DNA of 13,516 nucleotides from positions 1-13,516 of the forward strand of contig JAQVPE010000009.1 of assembly GCA_028702245.1 (NCBI GenBank), read 5' to 3'. Positions 1,474 through 11,817 of this stretch are shown one piece after another. Source of the DNA: Candidatus Izemoplasmatales bacterium (lineage in GTDB: Bacteria; Bacillota_I; Bacilli_A; Izemoplasmatales; Hujiaoplasmataceae). The notes beneath the pieces are model-generated. The model did no database searches and had not been told where the DNA came from. It was given only the letters and a program-made list of their open reading frames with translations. Within the stretch, counting starts at the first letter, position 1, and each line of letters starts with the position of its first letter. Made by a program: the position numbers and the translations under genes.

Positions 1474-1502
1474 TTGTATCGATGGTCGGATTATGTTAAA
1501 AT
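1474..1502 (+). promoter_or_regulatory. Promoter for the endonuclease I lipoprotein gene
   Basis: TTGTAT (1474-1479) and TAAAAT (1497-1502) have a 17-base spacer, and TGT just before the -10 makes it an extended -10 element. The predicted transcript would begin near 1509. It therefore excludes the longer reading frame that opens at 1493 and supports the GTG start at 1556. Confidence 0.55.
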
Positions 1503-1555
1503 GCAAGTGTAGCTTACTTACTTATCAATTATATTGTTGCTTAAGGAGTGATTAT

Positions 1556-3664
1556 GTGAAAAAAATAGTCTTTACACTTTTAGCGGCACAGTTATTGACT
1601 GGATGTTCGTTTTTGACTCTGGAGACTACAGTCTTGAACACGACACCATTAACAAACTCAACCAGTATAGCTACAACAACAACAACGACCTCAGCCAGTT
1701 TGACTACAACGGAAGCTATTATCACCACGACCGGTGAGGTTGTATTTCTTTCCTTTGGCGCAAACATTGAAGGAGCTAGTATTCAAAGCAATATCGATGC
1801 TCCTATTCATTCTGGCGATTTTGTTACGCTTACAGCAACACCGCTTGAAGGGTACCGTTTCGTCCACTGGGTCGATCTGGATAACGAAAAAGTCGTATCA
1901 CGTTTGACCAACTTGAGCGTTGAAATAAACCGGAATCGCCAGTTTATGGCCGTTTACACCCTTAACGACACAGTTGGCATATTTGTGCTTTCTAACGCTG
2001 ATGATTTGATACCAGTTCTTCCTGAGATGCCTTTTGGTAGCGGCGAGGAACTATCGATAATTGCGCCCGAAACCGCTGAAATAAGATTTCTATATTGGTA
2101 TGATATGGCTTCGGAAACGAAGATTTCGACAAACAACCCGCTTATAATCAGTCCCGATATCGATATGTATTTGCTTGCTGTCTATGAAGAATATCTCGGT
2201 GAACGATTGACTTACGAGACCGGATTTGAAGATGCCACGAAAGCGAGTTATGCACTGGGGACAATCGAGACCAATGAATTTCCGTTCACTCTAAATGAGG
2301 CCTTGATCGGGTCTTTGGCAAACGATAAAAAGGAAGGGTCAAAAAGCGTTCGCATCGGAAATGGATATCTTGAAACTGGTTTTGAGACAGAAGCTTTGAG
2401 AAAGATCGAGTTTGTTTATGCTTACTACGGAACCGATGGTACAAGCGCTTTTTCCGTTGCCGTGTCGAGCGATAAATCGACGTGGATTGCTCTTGATGAC
2501 TCTATATCTACGACCGATACCCTGCAAACTTTCTCTTTTCAACTCACGGACGATTGGTATCAACTTAACGATTTGCTATTGGAAACAGCACTGTATATAA
2601 GGATCACCGGTTCAGCTGACAAGAGAATCAATATTGACGAATTTAAAATCTGGCGTGAAGCCTTTGATGAACTACCGTTAGTATCCATTTTTGCAGACGA
2701 CACGGATAGCTCTTTTCCCGACAACAGCGAGCGAGCAGATATCGTGTTTGCTGAAGGCTTCAAAGTTGTACTAGCCCAAAACGAACTTTGGGACCCAGCA
2801 CTCTGCAACGCTCTTGACACCGAACTGGGTGAAACGGAGTGCCAGATATATGGCGCTGTCGACACCACCAAACTTGGGTATTATGATGTCATATATTATT
2901 ATCTCGATCCTGATGGCAATTACGCGTCCGCACCGGTTACGCATGTGGTCTTGCACGATCCATCGCTTCTTGAGCAAGACTATGTCGGTTATTATGACGG
3001 AATCGAGGGGCTTTATGGTGATGACTTGCTGTTAAAGCTCCGCGAGATCATCAACGATGGCCTCTATCGTAGGTCATACGACGAAGCTAGAACGATTCTA
3101 GCGGACGCTGACGTCGCGCCGCTTGACGACACAAAAGTTCTGACGATCTACACGCGAGAGCTGGCTCAAAGAGTGTGGGATGCCGAAAGTTGGCACCGGG
3201 AACATATTTGGCCCAATTCTCGTTTAGGAGTTCCCAGGGTTGATGGCAGCGATCGCAATATCGCCAGTGATCTTCATAATCTGCGCGCCATCATTCCTTC
3301 CATCAATAGTTCCCGCAGCAACAAAATCTTCGCTTTTGAAACCACCAGTGAAACCTTTGATCCCGGCCCCGACCGGGGCGAAGTCTCCCGCACCATGTTC
3401 TACATGGTTGTGATGTATGACTATTTGGATTTGGTCGACGAAATCCTGCCAAACGACCCCGAGACTAATTACACGTTAGCGGGAGCTAATATGTCGCTTA
3501 TTTCCGCATTCTTGACTTGGCATTATGAAGATCCTGTCGATCAGTTTGAAAGAGATCGCAATGAGACAATCTACATTTATCAGAACAACCGGAATCCTTT
3601 TGTGGATCATCCGGAACTAGTTGAGTTGATTTGGTTCGACGAACCGGCTTTCCCGCTTGGTTGA
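1556..3664 (+). CDS. Surface lipoprotein with InlB-like repeats and C-terminal endonuclease I
   Basis: 702 residues from a GTG start, chosen because AAGGAG (1543-1548) lies seven bases upstream and a lipoprotein signal follows directly: MKKIVFTLLAAQLLTGC, lipobox cysteine at 17. Next come a Thr-rich linker (about 29-59), two divergent InlB/bacterial-repeat-like modules (about 62-135 and 138-211, e.g. GYRFVHWVD and FLYWYD), a jelly-roll-like region (about 219-370), an Ig/DUF5011-like region (about 375-470) and an endonuclease I domain (about 475-690). The nuclease shows WHREHIWPNS (546-555), DLHNL (572-576), DRGEVSRTMFYM (from 606) and NRNPFVDHPE (from 678), which match the metal-dependent His-Me nuclease family, so it looks active. 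It should cut DNA or RNA at the cell surface, probably for nutrient recovery. An in-frame frame extends upstream to 1493 but lacks a ribosome site. Identity of the middle modules is less certain than that of the nuclease. Confidence 0.9.
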   Translation: MKKIVFTLLAAQLLTGCSFLTLETTVLNTTPLTNSTSIATTTTTTSASLTTTEAIITTTGEVVFLSFGANIEGASIQSNIDAPIHSGDFVTLTATPLEGYRFVHWVDLDNEKVVSRLTNLSVEINRNRQFMAVYTLNDTVGIFVLSNADDLIPVLPEMPFGSGEELSIIAPETAEIRFLYWYDMASETKISTNNPLIISPDIDMYLLAVYEEYLGERLTYETGFEDATKASYALGTIETNEFPFTLNEALIGSLANDKKEGSKSVRIGNGYLETGFETEALRKIEFVYAYYGTDGTSAFSVAVSSDKSTWIALDDSISTTDTLQTFSFQLTDDWYQLNDLLLETALYIRITGSADKRINIDEFKIWREAFDELPLVSIFADDTDSSFPDNSERADIVFAEGFKVVLAQNELWDPALCNALDTELGETECQIYGAVDTTKLGYYDVIYYYLDPDGNYASAPVTHVVLHDPSLLEQDYVGYYDGIEGLYGDDLLLKLREIINDGLYRRSYDEARTILADADVAPLDDTKVLTIYTRELAQRVWDAESWHREHIWPNSRLGVPRVDGSDRNIASDLHNLRAIIPSINSSRSNKIFAFETTSETFDPGPDRGEVSRTMFYMVVMYDYLDLVDEILPNDPETNYTLAGANMSLISAFLTWHYEDPVDQFERDRNETIYIYQNNRNPFVDHPELVELIWFDEPAFPLG

Positions 3665-3734: not shown

Positions 3735-4646
3735 TTAGCGTTGTATATAATTGCCGGTTGAATCGTCGATTAGCTTTTGGGTTTTTTCGTAATAGGAACG
3801 AAAGGATTTGAAGTATCCTTTCGTTTTCTTATTAATGTATTCGGAGGGAACCTGCGGATCGTTATGCAACTCCTGGAATGGATAGCCGCCTGAAACCCGC
3901 ATCCAACTGATCACTCCGGGACGGATCGCATCTGTTGGACAGTACATCGTGCAGGCCATGCACATCGAACAGTCAAAGAAGAAGCGGGGATAGCCGTTTT
4001 TAAACTTGATATTGCTTGAAGGACAGAGTTTCTGACATAGTCCGCATTGAAGGCAGCGATCCTTCTTGACGTGAAAGAACGGACCATTGATCCTCGCTCC
4101 CCAATACAAAACATATCTGATCGTAATCATCACGAGCCATGTCCACGGATAGATCTTTCTTTTTGTGACTTTATTGTTGGCAATGTCATTAGCTATGACC
4201 ATTGCCATTTTTCTAGTATGGACATACATTTGCTTGGCAAGCGCAAATGGATAACGAAAAAGGATATTATAGGGCATCAACAGATGCGTATCCATCAATA
4301 ATTGATAGCCTCGTTTCTTCAATAGTCGCATCAAACTCCAACTAGAAGCGTTGTTCAAACAAAATGGTTCCCCTGCAGTTTTGAAGATAAAAACCGGCTT
4401 GTTGTGAGCGGTTGGCAGTATTCTTTTTATCGTTGAAAGAAATAGTTGCGGCGGGTTGAAGGCATGGATGGGATATCCAAGACCGAGGACATCATAAGAT
4501 ATGGGAGCGGGTATTTTGTCCAAAGGTTTCCTGATTTGAAAGAGATCGACTTCATAGCCTTTGTTTTGAAGCTCGGACTGAATCATTTGCGCGGCAATGG
4601 CAGTGTTGTTGGTGCCGCTATAGAAGTAGATGATCGCTCTTGGCAT
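3735..4646 (-). CDS. EFR1-family flavodoxin/4Fe-4S ferredoxin protein
   Basis: 303 residues. The N-terminus (MPRAIIYFYSGTNNTAIAAQ) is a flavodoxin-like domain whose first beta strand runs into the phosphate-binding loop SGTNNT (10-15); the domain continues with GLGYPIHAFNPP (55-66). The C-terminal part binds two 4Fe-4S clusters: C198-x2-C201-x2-C204-x3-C208-P and C226-x2-C229-x2-C232-x3-C236-P. A hydrophobic stretch at about 166-183 could touch the membrane. Such proteins are thought to pass electrons between flavin and iron-sulfur clusters in anaerobes, but their partners are largely unknown, and none is encoded next door. ATG at 4646 was chosen because GGAAGGAA lies just upstream and the flavodoxin strand begins at once. 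A 44-residue upstream extension to 4778 has no family similarity and overlaps the likely promoter. Ends in a strong terminator at 3671-3703; transcribed alone. Confidence 0.88.
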   Translation of the reverse strand: MPRAIIYFYSGTNNTAIAAQMIQSELQNKGYEVDLFQIRKPLDKIPAPISYDVLGLGYPIHAFNPPQLFLSTIKRILPTAHNKPVFIFKTAGEPFCLNNASSWSLMRLLKKRGYQLLMDTHLLMPYNILFRYPFALAKQMYVHTRKMAMVIANDIANNKVTKRKIYPWTWLVMITIRYVLYWGARINGPFFHVKKDRCLQCGLCQKLCPSSNIKFKNGYPRFFFDCSMCMACTMYCPTDAIRPGVISWMRVSGGYPFQELHNDPQVPSEYINKKTKGYFKSFRSYYEKTQKLIDDSTGNYIQR

Positions 4647-4695
4647 CGTATGTTCCTTCCGGTAAACAGGATTTGATTTAAGAGATTTCTTAACT

Positions 4696-4724
4696 ATTAT
4701 AAACAACGTTACCATCAAATAAAA
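4696..4724 (-). promoter_or_regulatory. Probable promoter of the EFR1 gene
   Basis: A perfect TATAAT on the minus strand (4696-4701) lies 49 bases upstream of the chosen ATG. The best -35 at 17-base spacing is a poor TTTTAT (4719-4724), so activity may depend on other factors. Confidence 0.45.
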
Positions 4725-4826
4725 GCATACTAGCGATATTTGGCAAGGTTCTGCCAAAGAATGTGTTTCGACAATCAATATAAGCGAACAAATATGTTAG
4801 CTTTTATCTTGGCCGGCAGATACTAA

Positions 4827-6050
4827 TTAATTTTCTTTATAAATCATCCGATTGTAAACATGGACGAATCCGATTTTTTCATACAGTCTTTTTGCTTTAT
4901 TGTTGCCAAGGTCGACATGGAGAGAGACGTTCCCTTTAGTCAGTTCAACTGCTTTTTGAAGCAATAAAATACCAATCCCCCGGCCCTTGCTTTGGGGGTT
5001 GACGCCAATATATGCCAGGTGATAGCTAGGAATGAATGTTTTGAAACCGATACTAACAATCACACAGATTCCTACATGTTCGCCCTCTTTGTTCGCCAGA
5101 AGAATGAAGCCTTCATCCATGGCATTCTGGATGGCTTCGGCGGTTTCCGGTAAAGAGTCAGAATAGGGGTGAAGCCATGATTTGGTGAATTCTATCAGTT
5201 GCCTTTTGGGAACTTCATCAAAACTTAGGACCCTTTCGATTTTGATCGAGCTTTTGCCGCTGTTAAGCAATATAACATGATTGTCGTTTGCTAAGTCATG
5301 ATTTTTGATCTTGTTCAAAAATACCGCAAAAGCCATCGCGCCGTTTTTAGAAACGCTAAGTTGCTCTTTCTTGAGAAGGACCGCTGATTCTTTGATCAGA
5401 TCATCATCAATCATTTCTTGGACAAAACCATGATCTTCAATTTGATTTGAAGTTTTGTGATTGCTTGTCGCCCAAATAACATTGATGGGGCTTGGTTTGT
5501 TGTCTTCAAGAGACTGTTGATAGATGAATCGGTGCATTCCCGACAAGTCGTGGTTATGGACGGGATATAGGTATAGATTCGTGTTCCCCTCGAGGTTTCG
5601 ATCGCAAATTTCTTGCGCGATGTCCATGACGGCTATTTCCGCCGGAAGCTGATCGGTCTCTCCCTCAAGAGCCAAATACATATTGTTTTCAGAAGCGTAT
5701 TTTTGAAGTGTCTTGAGTTTTATGCCGTCTTCAACGTTTCGCCAGTCAAGAATTGTTGCATTCGAAAATAGTGTCTGTTTCCACCGCTCATTCGCAAAAC
5801 GAGGGATAATCACGGAAAGGTTATCCAAAGCGGCGAAATAATGAAGCGAATTGAGAAAAGGACGTGAACCGTGAGCCAGTATCTGATGACTGTTGCTGTT
5901 AACTGCCGTCTTGACCAACCTTTCGGTGATGCGATCGAGCCTTTCCCCGGTCGGATTCGCGCCTTCAAGTTTTAGATAGATATGATTGATATTTAGTGCC
6001 GCCTCGATTTTTCGGGCTCTGATCATTGGTGTTTTGCCGCTTTTTAACAT
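4827..6050 (-). CDS. Degenerate threonine-synthase-like (PLP fold II) domain fused to GNAT acetyltransferase
   Basis: 407 residues in two parts. Residues 1-~265 follow the plan of type II PLP enzymes such as threonine synthase: GKTPMIRARKIEAALNINHIYLKLEGANPTGE. However, the usual NPTGSFKDR reads NPTGERLDR (32-40), so Leu38 stands where the Schiff-base lysine should be. The substrate loop (AHGSR, 59-63) and the glycine-rich phosphate loop (VHNHDLSGM, 164-172) are also altered. It is therefore unlikely to be a PLP catalyst. Residues ~272-407 are a GNAT domain with the acetyl-CoA loop NPQSKGRGIG (351-360) and the closing NNKAKRLYEKIGF (383-395), apparently intact. The product may be an acetyltransferase whose pseudoenzyme half binds an amino acid or other ligand; that role is inferred. 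ATG at 6050 has CTCCTT/AAGGAG at 6056-6061. The gene is alone, divergent from the phosphoesterase gene, with its own promoter. Confidence 0.82.
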   Translation of the reverse strand: MLKSGKTPMIRARKIEAALNINHIYLKLEGANPTGERLDRITERLVKTAVNSNSHQILAHGSRPFLNSLHYFAALDNLSVIIPRFANERWKQTLFSNATILDWRNVEDGIKLKTLQKYASENNMYLALEGETDQLPAEIAVMDIAQEICDRNLEGNTNLYLYPVHNHDLSGMHRFIYQQSLEDNKPSPINVIWATSNHKTSNQIEDHGFVQEMIDDDLIKESAVLLKKEQLSVSKNGAMAFAVFLNKIKNHDLANDNHVILLNSGKSSIKIERVLSFDEVPKRQLIEFTKSWLHPYSDSLPETAEAIQNAMDEGFILLANKEGEHVGICVIVSIGFKTFIPSYHLAYIGVNPQSKGRGIGILLLQKAVELTKGNVSLHVDLGNNKAKRLYEKIGFVHVYNRMIYKEN

Positions 6051-6090
6051 AGGTGCTCCTTATTGGTATTGTCTTTTTGATCTCATTGTC

Positions 6091-6118
6091 ATTATAACAT
6101 CTTTTGTCCTTGACTCAA
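6091..6118 (-). promoter_or_regulatory. Promoter of the PLP-like/GNAT fusion gene
   Basis: On the minus strand TTGAGT (6113-6118) and a perfect TATAAT (6091-6096) are 16 bases apart. The -10 lies 40 bases upstream of the ATG at 6050. Confidence 0.6.
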
Positions 6119-8089: not shown

Positions 8090-9238
8090 ATGCAGAAAAC
8101 CAAACGCGATCGCCAACAAGATTTCTGGCTGCAAACACTAAGACCACTGGTCTATATTTGGATGCGGATTGATGCCAAACGCAAGGTCAATTGCGATCCT
8201 TTGATCGATTTCAAGCGCAAAGAGCCCTATGTCATGCTTGTCAATCATACTTTCATGTTCGATGTTGTCCATGTGCCACTGCGCTTCAAAAACGTGCCTT
8301 TCATCATTGCATCGCAAACATTGTTCACAAGACAACCGGCGAAATTTTTTGTCACGCAGATAGCTCATGTCATCCCCAAGTCCAAAGGAAAAAGCGATAT
8401 TCAAACAATCAGGAGTATCTTCAATGCTGTGAAGAAAGGCTATCCAATACTGATTTTCCCCGAAGGAGACACCACTTTTTACGGTGAAACGGGCTACATA
8501 GAAGAATCAACGATGAAACTGATCAAAAAACTCGGCATTGACGTCTTGACTTGTAACGTCAAGGGCGGTTACTTGTCCAAACCGAGATGGGCGACCAGCA
8601 AACGGAAAAATCGGAGAATCGAACTAAACTACAAACTTGAAATCCCCAAGGAAAAATTGAAGGATCTAACCGTCGAGGAAATCAGCGATATTATCCATAA
8701 AGCCCTATATCATAACGATTACGAGTACCAGCGACAAATGATGATACCCCATCCAGGGAAAAGATTGGCCGAAGGCCTCGAAAACATCGTTTATATCTGC
8801 CCTCATTGCGAGAGTGTCAATACGATCGAAACCAATAAGAACGTTATCAGATGCACCGCCTGCAAAAAAGAAGGTTACATCGATAAATTCGGATTCATTA
8901 ACAACTTCGTCTTTGACAATCTACTCGATTGGAATAAATTCCAGCGAAGATTCAGTGACAAGTTATATCAAAGCACGATCGAAAGCAAGGGGTTTTTATC
9001 CTTTTTAAATATGGAAGACGAGTCGCAAGTCTTGATTGGCGAAGTCGATTTGTTATATCGAGATGAAAACTTCTATCTTAGCGGAGCTCATGAAGAAGAA
9101 ATTCCGATCGTCGATATTGAGAATCCGACAGTGACGTTGAGACGTGATCTTGGTTTCAAATTCAAAGAAAAACATTATATCATCAGGCTTGAGCATTATA
9201 GCGCCGCCTTCTTAAGGCTGCTACAAGAGAAGTACTAA
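8090..9238 (+). CDS. PlsC-like lysophospholipid acyltransferase with zinc ribbon
   Basis: 382 residues. Residues ~45-185 form a 1-acyl-glycerol-3-phosphate acyltransferase-type domain. The catalytic H53-x4-D58 is present (NHTFMFD), followed by a substrate motif region (PFIIASQTLF, 70-79) and FPEGD (123-127) in place of the usual FPEGT/S. Such enzymes move an acyl chain onto a lysophospholipid at the inner face of the membrane. A second, less typical part follows: CPHC (237-240) and CTAC (255-258) make a four-cysteine zinc ribbon, and the last ~120 residues (from FGFINNFVF) are unassigned. I recall this acyltransferase-plus-ribbon layout in Mollicutes and Clostridia but not its purpose. Start has GAAAGGA at 8075-8081. 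No clear terminator follows; the bL25 gene has its own promoter. Confidence 0.88.
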   Translation: MQKTKRDRQQDFWLQTLRPLVYIWMRIDAKRKVNCDPLIDFKRKEPYVMLVNHTFMFDVVHVPLRFKNVPFIIASQTLFTRQPAKFFVTQIAHVIPKSKGKSDIQTIRSIFNAVKKGYPILIFPEGDTTFYGETGYIEESTMKLIKKLGIDVLTCNVKGGYLSKPRWATSKRKNRRIELNYKLEIPKEKLKDLTVEEISDIIHKALYHNDYEYQRQMMIPHPGKRLAEGLENIVYICPHCESVNTIETNKNVIRCTACKKEGYIDKFGFINNFVFDNLLDWNKFQRRFSDKLYQSTIESKGFLSFLNMEDESQVLIGEVDLLYRDENFYLSGAHEEEIPIVDIENPTVTLRRDLGFKFKEKHYIIRLEHYSAAFLRLLQEKY

Positions 9239-10110: not shown

Positions 10111-10680
10111 ATGAAACTGAAGAGAGTTGCTCTTGTCACATTCGCGGCGCTAGTCGGTTCTGCTTCCTTGTACTTGGCTATTGAGCCAGCTGTTGTCGCA
10201 TGCACACGGTTGGGAGTCATTGTCATAGAGGCGACCGAGGGCGATCCGCCCGAATACATCGATTACACCTATGGAAGCCATGATTACGAGGATTTTGCGA
10301 TAGTGGCATATTGGCCGAGCGGACAAAGAAGAAAAATCCCTTTTGATCTGGACATGCTTAGTGAAAACGATCGGGGAAAATTCGATATTTTGGGGAAACA
10401 CGAACTGACAGTATCATATAAAGGCATCTCGACATCCCTCAAAATCGAAGTCATCCGCTACTGCCAAATCACTTATGTCGTCGATGTTGGCGATGGCAAT
10501 GTCCAAGTCGAAGCTTATCAAAATGGCACCTTGGTGACATTGCCGGTGCCAACAGCCGATGGGCTTGAGTTTCGTGGCTGGTACGATAATCCCGATTATT
10601 CAGGTCAGCCGTACCCTAGCTCGATTGTAATCAATGAAGATATCACGTTATATTGTAAATGGGAAGAACTTCTCTCATAA
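10111..10680 (+). CDS. Secreted protein with Ig-like (Big_3-type) and Listeria-Bacteroides repeat domains
   Basis: 189 residues. The N-terminus (MKLKR, then a hydrophobic core to about 24) is a signal peptide. VVAC at 28-31 could be a lipobox, but the Glu-Pro before it is unusual, so lipidation is uncertain. Residues ~47-115 resemble a bacterial Ig-like Big_3 domain: YIDYTYGSHDYEDFAIVAYW, KIPFDLDML, then GKHELTVSYKGISTSLKIEV. Residues ~119-185 are one InlB B/Listeria-Bacteroides repeat, with the signature LEFRGWYDNPDYSG (152-165) and ITLYCKW. No catalytic residues are visible; a binding or surface role is inferred. AAGGA (10096-10100) and GGTGA (10103-10107) precede the ATG. It is followed after 21 bases by the PI-PLC-like gene, so the two are probably made together. 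Confidence 0.82.
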   Translation: MKLKRVALVTFAALVGSASLYLAIEPAVVACTRLGVIVIEATEGDPPEYIDYTYGSHDYEDFAIVAYWPSGQRRKIPFDLDMLSENDRGKFDILGKHELTVSYKGISTSLKIEVIRYCQITYVVDVGDGNVQVEAYQNGTLVTLPVPTADGLEFRGWYDNPDYSGQPYPSSIVINEDITLYCKWEELLS

Positions 10681-10701: not shown

Positions 10702-11817
10702 GTGAAAGTATTTAAAAAAATAGGTAAGTTATTCTTAATCGTTATCGCATCGGTTGTAACCTTGTTTCTGACGCTGATCTTGGTGTTTAGCTCGATCAGA
10801 TGGCGGGATATTTCGCTACAGAAAAAACATCTTGATGATCTTGAAAGCTTGTATGATGAGGATTATGAGGCGACCTCGGAGCAACAATTTGTCGGCTTTG
10901 ACCTTGATCTCAATACGCTCCGACTGAACGAAATCAGAATTCTCGCTTCGCATAACTCATATAAAAAACAAGGCACGGCACTCGGAAAACTTTTCATCGG
11001 ACTAGGCGATTCGTTTGCGGAGGCCAAAGCCCTCAAATATGGCAATCCGGACTTGACAACGCAAATGGATCTGGGAATCCGGAGTTTTGAACTAGATGTT
11101 AGATATCGAAAGGGCGACTTTGAGTGCACGCATGTTCCCCTTGTCGACAACGCAACGACTTGTGCCAAACTTTCCTTGGCGCTTCAGGAGATCAACCTTT
11201 GGTCCGAACACAATCCCGGACATCTTCCCATCATTTTGCTGTTCGAGCTGAAAAACGATTGGATGATGCTCGACCCCGGGCTTTCAGATATCGAAAGCGA
11301 GGAGCTATTGTTGCTCGATACTCTATTGGCTGATGCTTTTGGCGGTTCTTTATACAAACCTGCAGAATTGATGGGATCATATCAATCGATCCGCGAAAGG
11401 CTCGAAACAGAATCATGGCCGCTTGTCAATGAACTCTATGGAAAGGTTATTGTTGTCCTTCACCCAGGTGATTTTACACAAACGTATCTTGATCTTGATC
11501 CTGAATTTGACGAAATGGCAATGTTCCCTGCGGTTTCAAACGCTGATATCGATCATCCATATGCCGCTTTTTCGGTTCATAATGATCCTGATCCCGAAGC
11601 AATCCAAACCTTGCTCGAGGCGAACATGATTATAAGGACGAGAATGGATGCCAATCTCATCGTCGATGAGGATATGAGGACAATGGCCATGAATAGCGGC
11701 GCCCAAATCATGACGACCGATTTCCATCCGGGACATATGTTCAAAGATCAAGATGTAGTCTACCTCGATGATGAGTATCTCATTATCAGGAATCAGGTTT
11801 TGCTTGATTTGGAATAG
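10702..11817 (+). CDS. Membrane-anchored Ca2+-dependent PI-PLC-like phosphodiesterase
   Basis: 371 residues. One N-terminal hydrophobic helix (about 8-31) anchors the protein; the rest should lie outside. Residues ~72-350 match the Ca2+-dependent phosphoinositide-specific phospholipase C family (PI-PLC-C1): NEIRILASHNSYK with H84, DLTTQMDLGIRSFELDVRY with E130 and D132, the second histidine at FECTHVPLVD (H144), NPGHLPIILLFELK with E182, and the closing SGAQIMTTDFHPG (332-344). The expected catalytic histidines and acidic metal ligands are therefore present. The family cleaves phosphodiester lipids, but whether phosphoinositide is the true substrate here is unknown. The start is GTG at 10702, eight bases after AAAGGAG (10687-10693); a nearby ATG at 10695 is out of frame. 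Second gene of an operon with the Ig-repeat protein. Confidence 0.87.
   Translation: MKVFKKIGKLFLIVIASVVTLFLTLILVFSSIRWRDISLQKKHLDDLESLYDEDYEATSEQQFVGFDLDLNTLRLNEIRILASHNSYKKQGTALGKLFIGLGDSFAEAKALKYGNPDLTTQMDLGIRSFELDVRYRKGDFECTHVPLVDNATTCAKLSLALQEINLWSEHNPGHLPIILLFELKNDWMMLDPGLSDIESEELLLLDTLLADAFGGSLYKPAELMGSYQSIRERLETESWPLVNELYGKVIVVLHPGDFTQTYLDLDPEFDEMAMFPAVSNADIDHPYAAFSVHNDPDPEAIQTLLEANMIIRTRMDANLIVDEDMRTMAMNSGAQIMTTDFHPGHMFKDQDVVYLDDEYLIIRNQVLLDLE

Follow-up and report, generated by a model that had tools for sequence, protein, structure and literature searches.

What can a protein do whose N-terminal half resembles threonine synthase, lacks the lysine that would bind PLP and is joined to a GNAT acetyltransferase? 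The gene that raises this question lies on the minus strand of the window (the whole 13,516-nucleotide stretch of DNA analyzed here), running from an ATG at 6050 to a stop codon at 4827-4829 and encoding 407 aa; frame 1 of the plus strand of 4827..6050 contains many stops. Met1 is invariant in all 11 fusion proteins compared, and AAGGAG is found immediately before the ATG (6061-6056). A promoter-like match further upstream (6118-6091, TTGAGT-16-TATAAT, with TG before the second hexamer) is weak, as the region contains 9 such sites versus 6.6 +/- 2.4 in shuffles.

The original prediction of a PLP-fold domain coupled to a GNAT domain is confirmed by Pfam and NCBIfam matches and by its recurrence in 11 proteins, with the reading frame placed on the minus strand, and the anatomy of the fusion is well supported (Table 1). 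The GNAT family PF00583 matches residues 291-395 (E = 6.2e-13, 49.5 bits) above its cut-off of 20.7, and the Pfam PALP match at residues 5-164 (E = 6.7e-8, 32.7 bits) is slightly below its cut-off of 35. The best NCBIfam match is threonine synthase NF004996 (E = 2.6e-22, 79 bits versus a 266-bit cut-off); missing this cut-off means little because 0/198 genomes and 0/14 control genomes exceed it. The profile of the fusion family likewise matches threonine synthase over residues 4-289 (E = 5e-13). The PLP fold II scaffold proposed for the N-terminal half is supported, this half being of fold type II by the features compared; a single-sequence structure model of the fusion had a pLDDT of 34.5, too low for use. 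A mixed alignment (A3) placed cysteine synthase C-termini on the GNAT domain and was therefore not folded; alignment A4, in which part of the C-terminal half is still misplaced, was used in its place.

Table 1. Positions of the fusion gene, its domains, its altered motifs and its upstream signals in the window.
Feature	Position	Strand	Basis
Fusion gene, putative PLP fold II pseudoenzyme + GNAT acetyltransferase	4827..6050	-	407 aa; ORF, Pfam/NCBIfam, 11 two-half proteins including the window's
Type II PLP-fold domain, predicted to be without cofactor site, residues about 1-286	5193..6050	-	
Former PLP-lysine motif NPTGERLDR, residues 32-40 (Leu38, Arg37)	5931..5957	-	Lys absent in 11/11 fusions, present in 39/39 paralogues
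GSRPFLNS, residues 61-68, replacing the STGN/TSGN loop	5847..5870	-	SGN/TGN in 0/11 fusions versus 39/39 paralogues
About residues 161-174, replacing the Gly-rich phosphate loop	5529..5570	-	11 fusions versus 6 paralogues
VILLNSGKSSI, about residues 259-269, at the VTGNG site of threonine-synthase-like paralogues	5244..5276	-	
GNAT domain, residues about 290-407; acetyl-CoA loop QSKGRGIG (353-360), Y390	4830..5183	-	PF00583, 49.5 bits
Upstream signals of the fusion gene	6056..6118	-	Consensus match only

We compared the 11 fusions in which both halves are readable, those of ten genomes of the window's phylum (the window, G002, G013, G026, G020, G029, G022, G016, G050, whose last residues are lost at a contig end, and G171) and of Acetoanaerobium noterae, with 39 threonine/cysteine-synthase-like paralogues. 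These controls comprise every distinct open frame of >200 aa in 49 loci (L012-L030, L070-L099) that matches the profile of the N-terminal half at E 1e-3. The Schiff-base lysine column contains lysine in 39/39 paralogues and in 0/11 fusions. The lysine loss pointed out in the window's protein, whose residues had been numbered correctly (N32-P-T-G-E-R-L38-D-R40), is thereby a trait of the whole family: a check for close homologues that keep the lysine returned none, and a simple mutation in the window alone is ruled out. Among the relatives found, none was a fusion intermediate still carrying the lysine. Since the same fusion with the same loss is present in ten other bacteria, it represents a conserved protein design and not a one-off mutation.

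The nine-residue motif, NPTGERLDR in the window, reads NPTGHKCDR, NPSGSKFDR, NPSGSKHDR, NSTGSKQDR, NPTESKHDR, NPTGSKADR, NPNRSKYDR, NPTNHKYAR, NPTGHKNDR and SPTGHMHDR in the other fusions. Its flanks are kept (N in 10, P in 10, D in 10 and R in 11 of the 11), so the loss of the lysine is specific, and the unchanged spacing from N to DR indicates that there was no net insertion or deletion. One residue before the old site, 10/11 fusions have Lys or Arg: position 37 is Lys in nine, Arg in the window and Met in G171, and Lys is found there in 0/39 paralogues. A lysine so common in the fusions and so foreign to the paralogues could mean that the N-terminal half still binds PLP through Lys37, as an active or PLP-sensing enzyme. 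We consider this highly improbable, given the Arg and Met at this position in two of the proteins and the loss of the SGN and phosphate loops as well.

In type II PLP enzymes, the SGN loop holds the substrate carboxylate, and the other cofactor-contact loops hold the phosphate and the pyridine ring. The changes noticed earlier in the substrate and phosphate loops of the window's protein extend to its relatives, SGN/TGN and the Gly-rich pattern each being present in 0/11 fusions. The STGN or TSGN of the paralogues (39/39) is replaced in 11/11 fusions by G[SDQ] and other letters. For the phosphate loop, the comparison is with six paralogues (e.g. SVGDGCSIGG, GIGTGGTISG), and one or two of its glycines survive in the G002, G050 and A. 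noterae fusions. At the TGNG site of threonine-synthase-like paralogues, the fusions show L[DNE]x[AG][KR][ST] (columns filled in 9/11, gapped in 2); TGNG is also absent from the two cysteine-synthase-like rows compared (PDNG, PDTG). Because both the lysine and the cofactor-contact loops are lost, PLP binding is unlikely, and the N-terminal half appears to be a non-PLP pseudoenzyme domain. The original prediction also named a phospho-ligand; binding of one in the ancestral way is unlikely without the phosphate loop pattern, and as the SGN loop is lost in 11/11 fusions, ancestral-type binding of an amino acid is not favored either.

With a threshold of E 1e-20, the family profile matched 11 of the 90 genomes searched in the window's order, and a match to the fusion family was found in 10/34 genomes of the window's family. 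At E 1e-25, matches were found in 8/247 genomes of a class sample and 5/392 of a phylum sample. The distribution is patchy, with one fusion copy per matching genome. G171 is a fusion genome outside the window's order, and a full-length relative with 34% identity is encoded outside the window's phylum in the A. noterae record CP154629, which is the one record that carries the spread beyond the phylum. This 2.63-Mb record (L048, NZ_CP154629.1) is labeled plasmid pTPELB2 and has 4 listed features; judged by its size and genes, it is more likely a chromosome. In G003 and G021 the contig ends within the gene and only the C-terminal part of the fusion is present. A scan of genome contigs with the single protein gave 17 loci, 16 of them matching mainly in the GNAT part; L036 (residues 97-407, 22%) was rejected as a fusion relative, the PLP motifs being absent on reading. 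Searches of a phage collection (tblastn) and of viral contigs (alignment A1 scan) returned no fusion relatives, leaving a mobile origin of the fusion unsupported.

A 62-row tree of 11 fusion PLP halves, 35 threonine-synthase-like and 16 cysteine-synthase-like rows places the fusion halves in one clade (support 100/100, 100% of 200 bootstrap trees); the bootstrap had not settled, long branches were flagged, and F_Anoterae and F_G171 are possibly falsely joined. The threonine-synthase-like rows do not form one group in this tree (2 changes). The simplest history to be read from the sequences would be one fusion, followed by or coincident with one loss of the cofactor site, a loss that most simply would have occurred before the known family members diverged.

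Constraint on the protein is uneven along its length. Mean pairwise identity among 10 proteins (without G171) is 0.55 for residues 1-60, 0.30 for residues 61-275 and 0.61 for residues 290-407. For G026-G029, the closest pair, dN/dS is about 0.16 over residues 1-275 (dN 0.20, dS 1.23) and about 0.06 for the GNAT domain (dN 0.08, dS 1.34); dS is high or saturated in several fusion pairs. The pair G013-G026 yields about 0.4 for residues 1-275, 0.08 for the GNAT domain and about 0.5 for residues 61-275 alone, which suggests that constraint in this last segment is weaker than the closest pair indicates. Such fast evolution, together with the high dN/dS of that one pair, would suit a PLP half that is decaying baggage of an accidental fusion. 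This is very unlikely, as no listed copy contains an internal stop, dN is smaller than dS wherever both can be estimated, and no copy whose contig extends far enough lacks the N-terminal half, be it in the window's order, in G171 or in the clostridial species.

The GNAT half, proposed to be intact with its acetyl-CoA loop, is supported as such by its PF00583 match and by the GxG loop residues G356, R357 and G358, which are invariant in 12/12 rows of alignment A1. Further invariant features of the fusion GNATs are Y390 and two strings, FIPxYHLAYIG and SLHVD. We rejected the identification of the fusion as RimI: it scores 39.1 bits against TIGR01575, for which 86.4 are needed, and a separate protein in the window genome exceeds this cut-off (96.6 bits). 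The contig that carries the G002 fusion also has a tsaE-tsaB row with a rimI-like gene, truncated where the contig ends.

The closest stand-alone relative of the fusion GNAT in a plasmid collection is a GNAT of Persicobacter sp. JZB09 (CP012861, L049 2953-3399), with which the window GNAT shares 37% identity (query residues 282-404). Among 247 genomes, it matches only the 8 fusion genomes at E up to 1e-9. It is encoded in a tightly packed row (L049 1532-5691) with an SSF sodium:solute symporter, an M20 amidohydrolase and an alanine racemase, a row that looks like an amino-acid acetylation/racemisation operon. These neighbors at one locus suggest amino acids as the acetylation substrates of this GNAT branch, and the M20 amidohydrolase may reverse the acetylation. 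The amidohydrolase family TIGR01891 is found at E 1e-30 in 30/34 genomes of the window's family and is absent at this threshold from the window genome (86% complete); its co-occurrence with the fusion therefore carries no information.

Alternatively, the GNAT could act on proteins, acetylating their N-termini or lysines under the control of the fused domain, for which ACT-GNAT proteins provide a precedent (PMC6434083). RimI is indeed matched by 12/12 family members; PRK10514 is also matched by 12/12, and the RimI match therefore reflects generic GNAT likeness. With a RimI score under the cut-off, a separate RimI elsewhere in the genome and the Persicobacter relative among amino-acid genes, we regard protein acetylation as rather unlikely, if still a serious candidate.

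The gene neighborhood does not point to a family-wide partner, as no shared neighbor was found among the loci compared. In the window, the fusion is followed 48 bases downstream, likewise on the minus strand, by an EFR1 flavodoxin-ferredoxin gene (3735-4778; NF038196, 131 bits versus a cut-off of 75), whose translation probably begins at an internal ATG (MPRAIIYFYSGT). It was rejected as an operon partner because no EFR1-like gene is present in 12 other loci (11 around fusion relatives and the Persicobacter locus). In five g11/g6 genomes (G013, G026, G020, G022, G016) the fusion is preceded by a PAS/hemerythrin gene and followed by a Wzy_C gene, both named from the G013 copies only. The window, G002, G171 and A. 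noterae differ from this arrangement, the A. noterae fusion being flanked by an ABC transporter and a uracil-DNA-glycosylase-like gene.

Other genes at these loci were also recorded. Upstream of the fusion, a recurrent row in L058 (1040-6435) and, with some genes inserted or missing, in the similar L059, L060, L062 and L064 contains Crp-like, DUF438/hemerythrin/PAS, YbaN-like, thioredoxin-reductase-like and PAS_10/hemerythrin genes (Crp-like and YbaN-like assigned by eye, the other names taken from L058), possibly concerned with redox or oxygen sensing. The window itself encodes a large putative lipoprotein (1493-3664, plus strand) in which an InlB-type B-repeat is combined with an endonuclease I domain at the C-terminus, and a PlsC-type acyltransferase (8090-9238, plus strand) whose C-terminal stretch resembles a zinc ribbon, with ribbon matches under cut-off. 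It also encodes a Listeria-Bacteroides repeat domain protein (10111-10680), whose gene adjoins that of a PI-PLC-C1 domain protein with a hydrophobic N-terminus (10702-11817, plus strand; PF16670, E = 3e-42).

With a probability of about one half, we read the fusion as a conserved acetyl-CoA N-acetyltransferase to which a non-PLP pseudoenzyme domain is permanently attached, in order to recognise a ligand or partner. The GNAT half would perform the chemistry, presumably acetylation, on a substrate that may be a free amino acid or a comparable amine, as one stand-alone relative, the Persicobacter GNAT, hints. The ancestor of the N-terminal half would be a type II PLP enzyme closely related to threonine synthase; after the loss of the cofactor site, this half would persist as a folded module, non-catalytic and tied to the GNAT. 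What it recognises is most likely a metabolite resembling an amino acid, or a peptide or protein partner, and by this recognition it may select, deliver or gate the GNAT substrate. A role as an amino-acid sensor is possible on the sequence evidence; residues 61-275, which would line the old active site, are the least conserved, an argument against a strictly conserved ligand site in that region.

The same conservation pattern, in which residues 1-60 and not the old active-site loops are the best-kept part of the N-terminal half, would favor a dead domain that acts purely as a scaffold, by dimerising the GNAT or by docking it to a partner (a true threonine or cysteine synthase, for example), and that senses no small molecule. 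A threonine-synthase-like gene (C208) coexists in the window genome, and CysK is reported to partner CdiA and to take part in the cysteine synthase complex (PMC4961446, PMC12895370). The N-terminal motif is well kept in ordinary fold II enzymes too, however, and its conservation may be structural; we view the scaffold as possible but doubtful. More tentative still is an extension of the recognition reading, in which the empty cofactor site, with its lysine shifted by one residue, would have been remodeled to form a pocket that acts as a sensor or presents the substrate and drives the tethered GNAT. Such a protein might link amino-acid supply to acetylation in the window's lineage and at least one clostridium, as a new class of regulated acetyltransferase.

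As a fixed fusion, the protein would provide a PLP-fold pseudoenzyme with an output that can be read, acetyl transfer. Should the dead half bind a ligand, it would illustrate how a metabolic enzyme was turned into a sensor or a part that presents the substrate; should it be a scaffold only, the family would still be misnamed as threonine synthase. The original prediction knew of no described system with this pairing, and this stands among the literature matches listed (most subscription papers lay outside the search), which include neither an account of a fusion between a type II PLP domain and a GNAT nor a lysine-less member of the large type II PLP family.

Compared with threonine synthase (NF004996/PRK06381, 6cgq) and cysteine synthase, the fusion has the same fold, the same N-terminal GKTPL...KxEGxNPTG...DR pattern and the same register of the C-terminal half, but it has lost the Schiff-base lysine, the SGN loop and the phosphate loop and has gained a GNAT domain. 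It shares the GNAT fold and acetyl-CoA loop with RimI (TIGR01575), under whose cut-off it falls; the stand-alone Persicobacter sp. JZB09 GNAT, unlike the fusion, has no PLP domain. The nearest parallel in design is AAPatA, of the ACT-GNAT family of actinobacteria, a family activated by Asn or Cys in which a putative amino-acid-related domain is joined to a GNAT (PMC6434083); this published amino-acid sensor with a GNAT makes the general idea reasonable. AAPatA carries an ACT domain (PMC6434083), of which there is no sign among the Pfam matches of the fusion at E up to 1, whereas the fusion carries a dead PLP fold II domain instead. The fusion is real, conserved and, as far as searched, undescribed, and as a sensor or scaffold joined to a GNAT it is of a kind already known.
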